47,746 nt of DNA. Source: Desulfobacula sp. (GTDB lineage Bacteria > Desulfobacterota > Desulfobacteria > Desulfobacterales > Desulfobacteraceae). Location of the stretch: the NCBI GenBank assembly GCA_021647625.1, contig JAKIUJ010000004.1, positions 1 through 47,746 on the forward strand, written 5' to 3'. This document shows positions 2,100-11,703 of this stretch, piece by piece. Each line of letters starts with the position of its first letter. The first letter of the stretch is position 1. The notes under the pieces are model-generated. The model made no database searches. It was not told where the DNA came from and saw nothing but the letters and a program-made list of their open reading frames with translations. The position numbers were made by a program, and so were the translations under genes.

Positions 2100-2630
2100 T
2101 TATTTCTTGGCTTTTTTTAAATCAGAAAATGAAAAATCTTTGACGGACAAAGCTAAATAAGAAATAAAAAACCACCAGCCGCTTAATCCAATGATCATGA
2201 TATTTTGATTATAATAATATCCGTGATACAGCAGTAAAGGTGCTTGATTATCAGATGAAAAAATAAATATGATTGATAAAGCTGAGGCAATTATGGCGGG
2301 AATGAAGTGTACTATACTTGCTGGTCTTATCTTGTAATTTTTTATTAAAGACTGTTTGGTGATAAAAAACATCACTGGCCCCAATAAATAAACAGCTGTG
2401 ATTGGAAAGATGTTCAATATTTTATAATCGTTTAGCAAATCCATTATAAAAAAGATGTAATGGATTTGATATAAGCTAAATACAAAGAATAAATCTAATA
2501 GTAACCAGCTTTTGATAGATTTAACATCAGCAATAAGTTGTCCAACAGAGATAAGAACAGATAGCAGAAATCCATAAAATGTGATGATTAATATCAGAAA
2601 TAATTTTATGTTGCCGATTTGAATTTCCAT
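2100..2630 (-). CDS. Multi-pass membrane protein, likely AraC-type sensor lacking its HTH domain
   Basis: A 176-residue hydrophobic protein with about five or six membrane segments. The order of features (YLLGPVMFFITKQSL followed by VHFIPAI) resembles the membrane sensor half of AraC-family regulators in which about six helices precede a cytoplasmic HTH domain. Here the frame ends at SDLKKAKK, and the three downstream frames give no AraC domain. It may be a truncated regulator or a stand-alone membrane protein. The AraC resemblance is pattern recognition only. AT content is higher than in the greB gene beside it. Confidence 0.5.
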   Translation of the reverse strand: MEIQIGNIKLFLILIITFYGFLLSVLISVGQLIADVKSIKSWLLLDLFFVFSLYQIHYIFFIMDLLNDYKILNIFPITAVYLLGPVMFFITKQSLIKNYKIRPASIVHFIPAIIASALSIIFIFSSDNQAPLLLYHGYYYNQNIMIIGLSGWWFFISYLALSVKDFSFSDLKKAKK

Positions 2631-5842: not shown

Positions 5843-6634
5843 TTAAAGTTTTTTTCTGTTAACACCTGCAAGACCTAAAAGGCCAAGCCCAAAGAGAAAC
5901 ATTGTGGCGGGTTCCGGAACAGGGTTCGTATCTTGACCTGTAATTTCCATGACAGAGAGTTCAAAATTATAGTTCCCTGTTTGGGAAAACAGTTTATCTG
6001 ATAGACCTTCGTAGATTAACCTTCCATAAAATCCAAATTGATATTGTTGGCCTGCTGTCAATGTGTCAGAAAAAGAAAAAGACTGAGATAAAGATCCTCC
6101 ACCTATTCTCTTTGTAAACGAGTTGTTCCCTCGTGGTCCAAATGAAAAATCAGCGTAAAAGGCCTCATGTGTACCAATAAAATTCCCTGTGAGATCTAAT
6201 AAAGCATTTGTTTCCGGGGTAAAGTAGAGCGTAAAAAAAGAGGTAGCGTTAAGCCCCACTCCAACATCATCTCTCCAAACATCATTATGTGTATAATCCG
6301 CTGTAATTTTAGTATCTGTCATTTTTGCAAGAAGCTGGCTGGAGGAGGTAAAAAGCTGTGATTGTTGACGATTTGTTACTGTGGCCTGTAAATCATATAT
6401 ATTAGTATCAGGATCTTTAGAAGCTGCACCCTTTATTGCTGTCTTATCAAAATCTCCTGCTGAAACCATATCCGGGAGCGCCGTTTTGGTCCCTGAATGT
6501 TCACCAAATTTATACCCGGCATTGACCCGCCTCCATGTCTCATCTATAGTTGCTGCATACGCTTGAGTCGTCATAGTCAGACAAATCATGGTGAAAAACA
6601 AAATTCCAAAACTTTTTTTGCTCAATGGTATCAT
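5843..6634 (-). CDS. PEP-CTERM sorting-domain protein
   Basis: Secreted protein of 263 residues. It has an N-terminal signal peptide (FGILFFTMICLTMTTQAYA) and a C-terminal PEP-CTERM anchor (NPVPEPATMFLFGLGLLGLAGVNRKKL): PEP motif, hydrophobic helix and basic tail. Exosortase is expected to cut and attach such proteins at the surface or release them into the matrix. The middle (about 30-235) is beta-rich and has no domain that I recognise. No exosortase is present in the window. A GG-N10-GC promoter lies about 100 nt upstream, and the gene is divergent from the second PEP-CTERM gene. Confidence 0.85.
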   Translation of the reverse strand: MIPLSKKSFGILFFTMICLTMTTQAYAATIDETWRRVNAGYKFGEHSGTKTALPDMVSAGDFDKTAIKGAASKDPDTNIYDLQATVTNRQQSQLFTSSSQLLAKMTDTKITADYTHNDVWRDDVGVGLNATSFFTLYFTPETNALLDLTGNFIGTHEAFYADFSFGPRGNNSFTKRIGGGSLSQSFSFSDTLTAGQQYQFGFYGRLIYEGLSDKLFSQTGNYNFELSVMEITGQDTNPVPEPATMFLFGLGLLGLAGVNRKKL

Positions 6635-6734: not shown

Positions 6735-6753
6735 CAGCAAAATACATACCAAA
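6735..6753 (-). promoter_or_regulatory. Predicted sigma-54 promoter for the minus-strand PEP-CTERM gene
   Basis: On the minus strand the sequence reads TTTGGTATGTATTTTGCTG. The invariant GG and GC are separated by exactly 10 nt and the -12 element is TTTTGCT. It matches the element upstream of the other PEP-CTERM gene (GGTAT...TTGCT). The predicted start lies about 90 nt before the ATG. The -24 box is a weak match to TGGCAC, so this rests on the paired occurrence. Confidence 0.5.
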
Positions 6754-6962
6754 GACCACTATGCTATTATTTTTGAAACCTGGTTTATGGCAATACATAA
6801 GTAGTGAGACCTTTGATCAACTCAGGCCAGGAAAGCGCTACTTATCCCAAAACAGACAGGCCGGTGAAAGGCTGGCAATATTCGGATCACGATAAAACCA
6901 GGAGTCTTTAATGAATTCGAGGTCCCCATTTTAATATTTATCAAACCGGCTGATTTTAAACC

Positions 6963-7002
6963 TGGCTGATATCAGCCAATCTGGCTGTACGATAACAGCC
7001 AG
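6963..7002. promoter_or_regulatory. Tandem palindromes, candidate activator-binding (UAS) sites
   Basis: A perfect 16-bp palindrome TGGCTGATATCAGCCA (6963-6978) is followed two bases later by CTGGCTGT-ACGATA-ACAGCCAG (6981-7002). The two share the half-site TGGCTG, and a related CCGGCTGAT lies just upstream near 6946. They sit about 110-150 bp upstream of the predicted start of the plus-strand PEP-CTERM gene, the usual distance for an NtrC-type enhancer. PrsR, encoded next door, is the obvious candidate protein. Confidence 0.45.
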
Positions 7003-7082
7003 CAGCCAGACAAACCCCATACCACTCACCTCATTTTGTTTCATAACATTGTAATACCGATTGATTATCAGTCTTCATACGA

Positions 7083-7101
7083 TCCGGTATAAATATTGCT
7101 C
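7083..7101 (+). promoter_or_regulatory. Predicted sigma-54 promoter for the plus-strand PEP-CTERM gene
   Basis: TCCGGTATAAATATTGCTC has GG and GC exactly 10 nt apart and TATTGCT at -12. It lies about 105 nt before the ATG at 7204, so the leader would be about 94 nt, similar to that of the divergent PEP-CTERM gene. Conclusion from motif spacing plus the neighbouring sigma-54 activator. Confidence 0.5.
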
Positions 7102-7203: not shown

Positions 7204-7824
7204 ATGAAAAGAAAAATTTTTTTAATCCTGGCAGCTGTTTTTTTATACTGCACGACACTCCAGGCAGCAACCATAGTAGACACAGGCCCGGGAACAACAG
7301 GCCTCCGGGACTTTGGAACTGCCCAGTGGCTTTCCAGCCGGTTCACCCTTGATCAGGATTATTTTATTACAGATATCGCCGGCTGGGTGGTATCAGAAGA
7401 TCGTGCAGGACAAAGGTTTTCCATCTCGATTTATCACAACGACAATGGAGAAACACCCGGCACTCATATCTATACAAATGGTGCCGTCATATCCGGTACG
7501 GATTATGCCAGCTGGGAAGGATACCATATCAGCTATCAAAACGGGCTTGAACTTCTTTCCGGAGATTACTGGGTCAATTTCGAAAAACGGACGGCCAACG
7601 TGGATGATTACGATGGTTTCATGCCCTACAACTCTGCAAATCCTTTGGTTCATGGTGCTGTAATTACCGCACCGCTAACGCTCTGGAGTGAGTTTGATGA
7701 TTTAAAATTAGGCATCCGTATAACCGGAGACCTTGTAAACCCAGTTCCGGAACCGGCCACACTGTTTCTATTCGGCAGCGGCATGATAGGACTTGCAGGT
7801 ATCAACCGGAAAAAATATTTGTAA
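7204..7824 (+). CDS. PEP-CTERM sorting-domain protein
   Basis: Secreted protein of 206 residues. The ATG at 7204 is chosen over 7165 because AAAAAAGGAGT lies just upstream and the protein then begins with a clean signal peptide (MKRKIFLILAAVFLYCTTLQA). The body (about 22-180) is beta-rich; the phrases FTLDQDYFITDIAGWVVSED and SISIYHNDNGETPG suggest a jelly-roll-like fold of a type often found in PEP-CTERM proteins. It ends NPVPEPATLFLFGSGMIGLAGINRKKYL, a standard PEP-CTERM anchor nearly the same as that of the divergent gene. It ends 25 nt from the convergent prsR-like gene. Confidence 0.85.
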   Translation: MKRKIFLILAAVFLYCTTLQAATIVDTGPGTTGLRDFGTAQWLSSRFTLDQDYFITDIAGWVVSEDRAGQRFSISIYHNDNGETPGTHIYTNGAVISGTDYASWEGYHISYQNGLELLSGDYWVNFEKRTANVDDYDGFMPYNSANPLVHGAVITAPLTLWSEFDDLKLGIRITGDLVNPVPEPATLFLFGSGMIGLAGINRKKYL

Positions 7825-7849: not shown

Positions 7850-9172
7850 TTATCCCTGCTGCGTCCCGATTCCATACTTCTGGAGACGGTATCTTAATGC
7901 ACTTCGTGTGATACCAAGCTCTCTTGCGGCCTGGGACTGATTCCAGCGGCACTTTGTCAATGCGACCAACAAAAGGTTCTGTTCCTGGGCAACCAGGTCC
8001 AGGGGGGAGGAGTGATCACTTGCACGCCGCAGATTTTCGGTTTTGGGTTTCAAAAACAAATGCTCCGGCAGAATCATATTATCATGGCTGATGAGGACAG
8101 CCCGTTCCATGGTATTTTTTAATTCCCGTACATTCCCCGGCCAGGAGTGCCTTTGCAGCAATTCTCGACTTTCCCTGGAGACCTGAACCCCTGGCTGGTT
8201 GAACTCAGTTGCAAAATATTCAATAAAATAATCGGTTAAAATATCAACATCTCCCGGCCGCTCCCTTAGTGCCGGCATTGTCAGACAGACCGTGTTAAGT
8301 CGATAAAAAAGATCTGCCCTGAATATTTTTTTCAGAATCATATCTTCCAGATCCAGGTTGGTTGCTGACAATATCTTGACTGAAACCGGCCGGGATCGGG
8401 TACTGCCGACCGGGGTGATTACTTTTTCCTCTACAGCATGCAAAAGCTTAGGCTGCAGTGCTAAAGGGAGGTCTCCGATTTCATCTAAAAAGATAATACC
8501 GCCGTCTGCTTTGGAAAATGCACCTTCCCTGTTATCTGTTGCACCGGTAAATGCTCCTTTTTTATGTCCGAAAAGCTCACTTTCGAGAAGATCCCGCGGA
8601 ATGGCGGCACAATTGACCCGTACCATGGGGCCTTCAGATCGTCTGGACGACTGATGAATAGCTCTTGCAGCCAATTCCTTTCCGGTCCCGGACTCTCCGG
8701 TAATCAAAACCGAGCTGTCTGTGGATGCAAAAAGAGAGATATCCCGGCGGACTGTTTCCATGATCTCACATTCCCCCATCAACTGTTCTTTTATAGTTCC
8801 GGCATGATTCTTTGAGGCCAGCGCCTGCCCGGCAAGGGTGATCAACTGGTTATGGTTCACCGGTTTTGTCACAAAATCAAACGCCCCCTGCTTCATGGCG
8901 GTAACGGCTGTTTCAACCGTTCCAAAAGCAGTGAGGATAATCACTGGAATATCTGAAAAATTTTGTTGCCCAAACGCAAGGACTTCAAACCCATCCATCG
9001 GTTTCATCTTAATATCCGTTATGACAATATCAGGCCCCCACGTCTTCCAGACCTTAATTCCCTCTTTCCCGTTTTCAGCAGTTGTTACCTTAAACCCGTT
9101 ATCTTTCAGGACCATTCCCAATATCCGCCTCAACCGGGCTTCATCTTCTATCAGTAAAATCTTTTCATTCAT
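7850..9172 (-). CDS. prsR: Sigma-54 response regulator, PrsR-like
   Basis: NtrC-family activator of 440 residues. The receiver domain (1-120) has acidic residues ED at 9-10, phospho-acceptor Asp53, and Lys103. The AAA+ domain (about 130-370) has Walker A GESGTGKE (159-166), an intact sigma-54 contact loop GAFTGA (206-211) and Walker B GGIIFLDEIGD. The C-terminal Fis-type HTH reads WNQSQAARELGITRSALRYRLQKYG. It overlaps the kinase gene by 4 nt. Family membership is firm. The PrsR name is inferred from the kinase type and from the adjacent PEP-CTERM genes with matching sigma-54 promoters. Confidence 0.85.
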   Translation of the reverse strand: MNEKILLIEDEARLRRILGMVLKDNGFKVTTAENGKEGIKVWKTWGPDIVITDIKMKPMDGFEVLAFGQQNFSDIPVIILTAFGTVETAVTAMKQGAFDFVTKPVNHNQLITLAGQALASKNHAGTIKEQLMGECEIMETVRRDISLFASTDSSVLITGESGTGKELAARAIHQSSRRSEGPMVRVNCAAIPRDLLESELFGHKKGAFTGATDNREGAFSKADGGIIFLDEIGDLPLALQPKLLHAVEEKVITPVGSTRSRPVSVKILSATNLDLEDMILKKIFRADLFYRLNTVCLTMPALRERPGDVDILTDYFIEYFATEFNQPGVQVSRESRELLQRHSWPGNVRELKNTMERAVLISHDNMILPEHLFLKPKTENLRRASDHSSPLDLVAQEQNLLLVALTKCRWNQSQAARELGITRSALRYRLQKYGIGTQQG

Positions 9173-11703
9173 TGTTTTCCCTGTACGCTCCTGTCTGAAA
9201 TAATTGCACGATTCAGGTCATATCCTTTCTTTGTCACACCTGTTGCCAGCGGTTTCAAAGGAAGCCGGATACGCACCGTCACCCCTTTTATCGTCCTGTT
9301 GAAAAGCTGGATGGTTCCGCTGTGAGCCGATATAAGCTGTCTGCATACCACAAGCCCCAATCCAAGCCCCTTTTCCTTGGTTGTAAAGAAATTATTAAAG
9401 ACCTTATCCTTGTGTTCATTTTCAATTCCGGGTCCGGTATCTTTTATGTTCAACTCAATTTTATCCTGATATACTGCCGCCTCCAGAATAACGTTTCCAC
9501 CGTCAGGCATCATATCCTCACTGTTATTGATCAAATTATGAAGCACCTGGGTCAGTTGTCTTAAATCCCCATACATGGTGGGAAGATACTCTTTTATCCG
9601 GCATTCGATATCTATTTCAGGATTATGGTGGTCTGAGTGACGCCACCTTAGAACAAGCCGTGGCAGTTCCTTATTCAGATCAATTTGCCCGAGGACGGGC
9701 GGACGCTGCTTGGCAAGCCCCAGAAGGCTGGTAATGGTCATACTCAGGTGCTCCACCTCATCCATGATATAATGCAGCATCTCTTTTTTTACTGTTTCCG
9801 ACTCTTTTCCCTGTTCAAGATACTGGGCTGAACTGTGAATGATTCCCAGGGGATTTTTCAATTCATGGGCCAGCATGGTGGACATTTCACCCACAAGGAC
9901 CATTTTTTCCTTATGTACTTTCTGGCTGAAAAGCTCTTCTAACTGCCTTTTGCTTTCAATCAATGTTTCATACCGCATGGCATTTTCCAGAGCAATGGCG
10001 GCCTGGTTGGCAAAGCTGGAAAAAAGGTGAAGATCCTCTTCCCGGAAAAAACGGCCATCCTTTCGCGGACCGATGATCAGAAACCCGGGACTGGACCGGG
10101 TAGATTTCAAAGGAAAAACCAGTGTATAATTCTCTTTCTTAATCAGGCCAAGCTCATTTTCGAGCGCTTTTTCATCCCCCTTGTAATGGGTAAGCAAAAA
10201 AGAGCGTTCCGTATCTTTAAATATGGAAAACAATCGGCTTTCTCCCCAGGGATACGCTTCGATATTCACATTTTCCGGATAACAGCGGGACTGATTTTCT
10301 TCCACAAGAATCAATGCCGCCCCAGTGATGCCTATTTTCTCCGGCAGTTCCCCTACAATGGCGTGTAAAAGATCCGGCCACCTGAGTGATGCGGTTATCT
10401 TATCACTAATTTCATGAAAGATTTTCGCCGGAACCGGACGTCGCCGGTAGAAGATACGATCAATATATTTTTCTATCCAGGAAATAGCAGGCTGAAAAAA
10501 AAGTATGGTGCCAATGGTAAATAATAAAAACAGCTCCTCAGACAAGATGCTCCTTCCGAAAAACCATCGCTTTAACCCGGCGATTACCAGTGAATACACC
10601 AGAGACAGAATCACGATAAGGGCTGTATATGAAACAATCCTGCTGACCATTTTATCCACATCAAACAGGCGATACCGAACCAGGGATAAACAAAGGGAAA
10701 GGGGAACGCTTGTGGCCATTAAAGTCACGGTGTGCAATGAAATCAGGGGACGGTCGATGATCAGCTCAGGCAGAAGATAGAGGAACAGGTATGGAGAAAT
10801 TCCGAAAACAGCGGCTATCAATGGAGTAAGCAATTGGTTTTTAATTGATGGATCCGATGATGTATACACATCAAACACATGCTTGGAAAATGTACCAACA
10901 ATGATGAATGGAGCTGCCCAGTTTCTTACCCGGATCAATTGACTGAAAAAAGCACTGCTGTCGTCTGCCAGACCCCAGGCCGCCAGAATGCTTACCAGAG
11001 GAGGCATAAGATAAAAGAGAACAATCAGAAAGGGCCGGCCGGTTAAAAGGTCCCTTTGTTCAGGGTAACGCAGGACAAAATGAGCCCAGGATGAAAAGGC
11101 AATCCAGATACTGATAACAACCACGATATAGTACCAGAACACAACGGCTGGCTGGAGAGAACCAAAAGAGAATGGAATGTCAGCCGACACCGCAATAGCA
11201 AAAGATATCATTGAGATCAGAAATATGTGGGACGGCTGGTCTGCCGGTGACCGGGTAAAGGCTGTCAGGCTCAGTACAAATAACACCAGAATAACCAGGA
11301 GAAAAGGGAAGGCTGAAGCAATAAACTCAATAAGAGATAAGGGCCTTGCTTCAAGTGGCAGCATTATTTTTTTCGAATTACGGAGGATAGTAATATCATG
11401 GGTTGGAACACTTGAAAACGGGGAAAGAAAAATTGAATAAAGCCGCTTATCATAATCCTGGTGATTTACCTGAACAATCAGATCACCTGGTTTGATTGTT
11501 TCAACAGAGGCTTCCACGGAAGAGACATAAAACCCTTTCTGGCTGAAATCGAGAGAGATTCCCGTTGTTCCCTGTATGAGCGTTACCCAGCAAAAAGAGA
11601 TAAAAATAACAAAAGAGAGCCCAGCATATCCGAAAAAGAAGATCGGGGGTCTGAAAAACTTTGCTTGCGAAGATGATGTCCCTGTACCCTTTTTAATCAA
11701 CAT
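9169..11703 (-). CDS. prsK: Membrane sensor histidine kinase, PrsK-like
   Basis: An 844-residue kinase. One membrane helix (20-45) is followed by a PDZ-like periplasmic region (about 50-118, IKPGDLIVQVNHQDY), then about seven more membrane helices (125-405), a cytoplasmic GAF domain (about 430-575), HisKA with phospho-acceptor His613 in MLAHELKNPLG, and a HATPase domain with NLINNSED, DTGPGI and GLGLGL boxes. The GAF-HisKA-HATPase order behind a multi-pass membrane region fits the PEP-CTERM kinase PrsK; the PDZ-like insert is additional. It is the first gene of a two-gene operon with the regulator. No clear promoter was seen upstream. Confidence 0.8.
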   Translation of the reverse strand: MLIKKGTGTSSSQAKFFRPPIFFFGYAGLSFVIFISFCWVTLIQGTTGISLDFSQKGFYVSSVEASVETIKPGDLIVQVNHQDYDKRLYSIFLSPFSSVPTHDITILRNSKKIMLPLEARPLSLIEFIASAFPFLLVILVLFVLSLTAFTRSPADQPSHIFLISMISFAIAVSADIPFSFGSLQPAVVFWYYIVVVISIWIAFSSWAHFVLRYPEQRDLLTGRPFLIVLFYLMPPLVSILAAWGLADDSSAFFSQLIRVRNWAAPFIIVGTFSKHVFDVYTSSDPSIKNQLLTPLIAAVFGISPYLFLYLLPELIIDRPLISLHTVTLMATSVPLSLCLSLVRYRLFDVDKMVSRIVSYTALIVILSLVYSLVIAGLKRWFFGRSILSEELFLLFTIGTILFFQPAISWIEKYIDRIFYRRRPVPAKIFHEISDKITASLRWPDLLHAIVGELPEKIGITGAALILVEENQSRCYPENVNIEAYPWGESRLFSIFKDTERSFLLTHYKGDEKALENELGLIKKENYTLVFPLKSTRSSPGFLIIGPRKDGRFFREEDLHLFSSFANQAAIALENAMRYETLIESKRQLEELFSQKVHKEKMVLVGEMSTMLAHELKNPLGIIHSSAQYLEQGKESETVKKEMLHYIMDEVEHLSMTITSLLGLAKQRPPVLGQIDLNKELPRLVLRWRHSDHHNPEIDIECRIKEYLPTMYGDLRQLTQVLHNLINNSEDMMPDGGNVILEAAVYQDKIELNIKDTGPGIENEHKDKVFNNFFTTKEKGLGLGLVVCRQLISAHSGTIQLFNRTIKGVTVRIRLPLKPLATGVTKKGYDLNRAIISDRSVQGKQ

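Follow-up and report, generated by a model that had tools for sequence, protein, structure and literature searches.

Two palindromes with TGGCTG half-sites, lying between a pair of divergent PEP-CTERM genes in Desulfobacula sp., very probably serve as the upstream activating sequence of the two-component system encoded beside them, which would drive genes for exported surface proteins. On the best reading of the sequence comparisons, both the operator and the regulon of this AtoC/PrsR-like two-component activator are new. The stretch of DNA analysed (47,746 nt of contig JAKIUJ010000004.1, hereafter the window) belongs to a 4.27 Mb, 93% complete draft genome (G000), and its relevant features are:

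5843 to 6634, minus strand: PEP-CTERM protein gene, 263 aa (PF07589 38.9 bits, TIGR02595 25.7 bits)
6736 to 6751, minus strand (read 6751-6736): predicted sigma-54 -24/-12 promoter TGGTATGTATTTTGCT, 15.1 bits, 211 nt from the operator
6963 to 6978, unstranded: N4 palindrome TGGCTGATATCAGCCA, perfect, proposed as the operator by an earlier sequence-only reading
6982 to 7001, unstranded: N8 palindrome TGGCTGTACGATAACAGCCA, 20 bp with 8-bp arms counting the flanking C/G, the nearer of the two to the plus-strand promoter
6963 to 7001, minus strand: putative composite enhancer/operator, N8 palindrome TGGCTGTTATCGTACAGCCA + GAT + N4 palindrome TGGCTGATATCAGCCA, from an alignment of 7 copies (E=3.5e-11 within G000; this copy was among those used to train the profile)
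7085 to 7100, plus strand: predicted sigma-54 -24/-12 promoter CGGTATAAATATTGCT, 10.6 bits, shuffle p=0.02, 83 nt from the operator edge
7204 to 7824, plus strand: PEP-CTERM protein gene (TIGR02595 23.8 bits, cut-off 16)
7850 to 9172, minus strand: NtrC/AtoC-type response regulator with receiver, sigma-54 AAA+ domain with GAFTGA and Fis-type HTH ending ITRSALRYRLQKYGI, the presumed activator
9169 to 11703, minus strand: membrane sensor histidine kinase with long hydrophobic N-terminal half, GAF, HisKA and HATPase, the presumed partner of the regulator

Both divergent genes encode a C-terminal PEP motif followed by a transmembrane helix and a basic tail, with PF07589 and TIGR02595 scores that exceed the cut-offs; the start of the plus-strand gene was set at the ATG at 7204, which is preceded by AGGAG. 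A sigma-54 scan with an approximate position-weight matrix, whose weights we made ourselves from the known consensus, gave TGGTATGTATTTTGCT and CGGTATAAATATTGCT as the best sites upstream of their respective genes, and none of 200 shuffles scored as high as the former (p <0.005). The two sites share GGTAT and TTGCT boxes in a GG-N10-GC context (TGGCACG-N4-TTGCW-like) and lie 101 nt (minus strand, to the ATG at 6634) and 103 nt (plus strand, to the ATG at 7204) before their start codons, so that leaders of ~90 nt are predicted for both genes, as the sequence-only reading had described. The TGGCTG palindromes it had placed between the genes were also recovered; they span 39 nt, and the centres of the N8 and N4 palindromes are 21 bp apart, equal to two helical turns. 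No consensus IHF site was found near the operator.

The 16-mer alone is just mildly unusual, since TGGCTGN4CAGCCA with up to two mismatches occurs five times in the window where 1.5 occurrences are expected. The arrangement CAGCCA-N2-5-TGGCTG-N4-CAGCCA, however, matched four times across 243 relatives (the window, G001, G003 and G075) against one match for the reversed control; on these counts the palindrome pair, as opposed to the single 16-mer, is not a product of chance. A search among relatives with the kinase as query recovered distant homologues, of which those of G001, G003 and G034 (Desulfospira joergensenii DSM 10085, operator at L038 4769-4806) have TGGCTG palindromes nearby; kinases at operator loci share just 40-42% identity. 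In all, scans of the 243 relatives placed the composite at 10 places in seven genomes, with the consensus architecture TGGYTG-N8-CAGCCA / 2-4 nt / TGGCTG-N4-CAGCCA in both orientations.

Kinase relatives (E<=1e-100) were present in 10 of the 243 genomes. Six of the seven operator genomes have the kinase, with the element near the kinase-regulator pair, and in G000, G001, G003, G034, G075 and G184 (6 of the 10 kinase genomes, spanning two families, with G184 in the different one) the composite is found within a few kb of that pair. All four genomes with the exact operator core fall among the 10 kinase genomes, for which our own arithmetic gives a chance probability of ~1.5e-6. In G075 the kinase is on a different contig from the exact-core operator, and a second, slightly degenerate operator adjoins it (L046 = G075:C7); copies in trans, on other contigs, occur in G003 and G075. 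The remaining operator genome, G017 (78% complete), had no kinase match at the cut-offs used.

A covariance model built from the seven copies, searched over the 243 genomes and then over 390 genomes of the class (overlapping sets), found the operator in seven genomes. Its E-values are rough (short calibration) and include training copies; only three sites are independent: the G017 operator (E 1.4e-10), followed by a sigma-54 site and a lipoprotein-like operon; one in G003 (C775, E 4e-6), before a sigma-54 site and a beta-helix protein gene; and a weak one in G075 (C46, E=0.0017) before a PEP-CTERM gene, with the sigma-54 site 543 nt away. A scan of genome contigs returned four close kinase relatives, none from genomes beyond those found by the other searches, and most remaining matches covered the kinase domain only. 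No TGGCTG composite was found near the more distant kinase relatives of G013, G016, G018 and G114. Repeated palindromes of GGTTCA/TGAACC type, seen mostly by eye, are present beside the distant kinase-regulator pairs of G016 and G013 (L135:5989-6026; L042 near 6200), and are possibly the operators of that subclade.

The distance from operator to promoter is close to fixed. At eight of the 10 places a sigma-54 site that faces outward and scores >=9.5 bits is found 73-97 nt from the operator edge; at seven of the eight, such a site is at a distance of 81-84 nt (83, 84, 84, 84, 81, 83 and 84), where 84 nt equals eight helical turns; random positions in the same loci had a site at 70-100 nt in 1.4% of cases. 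The genes behind the spaced sites encode PEP-CTERM or other exported proteins, to which the operator is tied across genomes. In the window, the plus-strand promoter is at the recurrent spacing (83 nt) and the minus-strand promoter is not (211 nt). Divergent sigma-54 sites are present at 73 and 84 nt in G001, with a PilZ protein as the product of the second gene, and at 151 and 97 nt in G184, which suggests that a single operator is used divergently in both. PilZ-domain genes also occur downstream of the regulator gene in relatives (L037:10325-10636, L046:10847-11158), hinting at a c-di-GMP link, and none was noticed beside the window pair.

The adjacent regulator has the domains PF00072, PF00158 and PF02954, the GAFTGA motif reported for it can be read in its translation, and its gene overlaps that of the kinase by 4 nt. 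Many other sigma-54 activators are encoded in the genome, and the assignment of the operator to this one therefore rests on linkage. Palindromes do not specify the protein which binds them, and in such a genome they might be bound by a different regulator, either a repressor or another enhancer-binding protein. We consider this improbable, as the operator is linked to this clade of activators in six genomes from two families, its near-fixed spacing to sigma-54 sites points to an enhancer-binding protein, and the sister group departs in both half-site and recognition helix. The operator-associated regulators group in a single clade (support 99/98) with a common helix, ITR[SG]ALRYRL: all end in ITRSALRYRL except that of G034, which has ITRGALRYRL together with a variant half-site pair, TGGCGG/CCGCCA. 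Sister regulators carry ITRNTLRYR[MI] (ISRNTLRYRM in G114), and the TGGCTG element is absent from their loci. At the sister-type locus of G137, CGGTGCAAATCCACCA-CCAC-TGGTGCTGCATATCCACCA is positioned 76 nt upstream of a sigma-54 site that precedes a PEP-CTERM gene, which fits the expectation if helix and half-site change together. This pairing is a correlation across few events.

Phosphorylated dimers of NtrC-family regulators nucleate an AAA+ ring, which activates sigma-54 polymerase by DNA looping. By this biology and the geometry of the sites, the membrane kinase of the adjacent pair (9169-11703) would sense an envelope or environmental signal and phosphorylate the regulator (7850-9172), two dimers of which would occupy the two palindromes, N8 and N4, at a distance of two helical turns. 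The bound dimers would nucleate the AAA+ oligomer, which would loop across to polymerase at the -24/-12 site of 7085-7100, 83 nt off, and probably also to its divergent counterpart at 6736-6751, a distance of 211 nt. Genes for exported surface proteins would thereby be switched on, in this case those of two PEP-CTERM proteins. What the comparisons establish is the sites and their conservation, the linkage to this kinase-regulator clade, the recurring distance to sigma-54 sites and the copies in trans; the signal, phosphorylation, the binding of the regulator with its dimer stoichiometry, and activation are inferred. The operator as first proposed, TGGCTG-N4-CAGCCA, is supported by conservation and by linkage in six kinase genomes; it is incomplete, as the N8 palindrome belongs to it equally.

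The sequence-only reading had named the neighbours PrsK/PrsR, the system named in 2006 in the work that described sigma-54 promoters before PEP-CTERM genes (Haft, PMC1569441). If this were a canonical PrsK/PrsR regulon, the palindrome would be a PrsR box common to the PEP-CTERM genes of the genome. Sigma-54 sites do precede most of those genes, an enhancer-binding protein adjoins the two in the window, and the regulator matches TIGR02915 (PrsR) over its full length, though below the cut-off (346.7 vs 502.6). It ranks only 18th in its genome for that model, however, and no protein of the genome reaches 502.6; the kinase scores 107.1 vs a cut-off of 300 for TIGR02916 (PrsK). Orthologues behave likewise, with five regulators at 359-368 and two tested kinases at 101 and 81, all below the same cut-offs. 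The curated cut-offs thus rule out PrsK/PrsR identity for the pair, and by these scores the regulator is a relative of PrsR and not PrsR itself. The promoter architecture differs as well, the window having a two-palindrome TGGCTG element ~84 nt from the promoter, whereas Haft motif 1 ends in TTTACA and is ~63 nt from motif 2 (PMC1569441). Together with the distribution of the motif before the other PEP-CTERM genes of the genome, this leaves a canonical PrsR regulon very unlikely.

On that distribution, the description of the locus as a PEP-CTERM regulon in miniature does not hold for this genome. Among the 17 PEP-CTERM genes above the Pfam cut-off in the genome, 15 have readable upstream DNA and 13 of these have a plausible sigma-54 site upstream, with weaker sites at L017 and L021 and a distance of 272 nt to the ATG at L012; sigma-54 promoters before PEP-CTERM genes are general in this genome, an association already published (PMC1569441, PMC9850573). 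The sequence-only reading had expected TGGCTG-N4-CAGCCA before other PEP-CTERM genes and had named a lack of enrichment there as refuting it. Within this genome that is the outcome, for in a genome scan the motif was absent from them and showed no enrichment: the exact 16-mer has four copies in the genome, the three outside the window all lying within open-reading frames. By profile search the window holds the sole copy of the composite operator, and a longer N7 palindrome pattern taken from the window had just one chance-level match elsewhere. Several of the other upstream regions (L007-L011, L013-L015 and L020) instead have an AT-rich palindrome, TATGAAaTTTTTTTCATA, in common. In leave-one-out scoring of the regions upstream of the other sigma-54 sites against order-2 resampled sequence, TATGAAaTTTTTTTCATA gave p 0.003-0.010 in five of 10 regions (combined p ~8e-7), and was not detected in the two PEP-CTERM upstream regions of the window (p 0.46-0.84). 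It may be the enhancer through which the genome's main PEP-CTERM regulon is controlled; its likeness to Haft motif 1 is limited to TTTACA within some copies, judged without the published logo.

The system resembles several which are already known. PrsK/PrsR systems (PMC1569441), including that of Desulfovibrio vulgaris DVUA0057 (PMC3333781, PMC4641369), likewise combine a two-component sigma-54 activator, PEP-CTERM targets, -24/-12 promoters and an upstream activator site. DVUA0057 is a predicted PEP-CTERM regulator for which DAP-chip showed binding at its five predicted PEP-CTERM targets (PMC3333781), and PMC4641369 has a predicted DVU0110/DVUA0057 motif. In Aquincola tertiaricarbonis, the PEP-CTERM gene pepA has a mapped start site behind -24/-12 motifs and requires RpoN1 for transcription, although this is another organism with another upstream site, and no activator was shown (PMC9850573). 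The best curated matches of the window pair are AtoC (397.5 bits, regulator) and AtoS (165.9 bits, kinase domain), far below the equivalog cut-offs of 714 and 646. As in zraP-zraSR, the target is transcribed divergently to the genes of a sigma-54 regulator pair. Unlike AtoSC/ZraSR, however, the window kinase has a long hydrophobic N-terminal half plus GAF, and the targets are PEP-CTERM and other exported proteins. No description of an operator with this sequence was found in the open-access literature, a search whose coverage stopped short of supplements and of the DVU0110/DVUA0057 motif of PMC4641369.

That the palindromes are non-regulatory (a cluster arisen by chance, a repeat element, or an RNA hairpin or terminator) is hardly credible: such inverted repeats could fold and TGGCTG palindromes also occur inside genes elsewhere, but the element is rare among the 243 genomes, occurs in both orientations, lies upstream of both predicted start sites and keeps its two-site architecture and promoter distance at loci whose targets are otherwise unlike. 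We think it likely that the operator of the adjacent pair belongs to an undescribed two-component sigma-54 surface-protein regulon, in which a two-palindrome enhancer stands at a nearly fixed ~84 nt from its promoters and half-site and recognition helix change together across sister clades, with the PEP-CTERM genes of one genome divided among two or more enhancer codes. This would give sigma-54 activators of an uncharacterised family a partner and a precise, testable operator, and it suggests that no single PrsR-type control governs every PEP-CTERM surface protein, even in one genome. The paired changes of helix and half-site offer a natural series for studying DNA recognition by the Fis-type HTH domains of enhancer-binding proteins.

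Exosortase (TIGR02602, PF09721; EpsH family) had no match in this 93% complete draft with its 17 PEP-CTERM genes; incompleteness of the draft is the plainer reading, because most genomes tested (11 of 16) have one. At L013, the leader that separates the sigma-54 site from the PEP-CTERM start contains a c-di-GMP-I riboswitch (RF01051, 42.4 bits; 2219-2296, minus strand), and the L015 leader looks similar but scores below the gathering threshold. The PEP-CTERM gene at L021 is apparently frameshifted near its start, through either mutation or an error in the draft.
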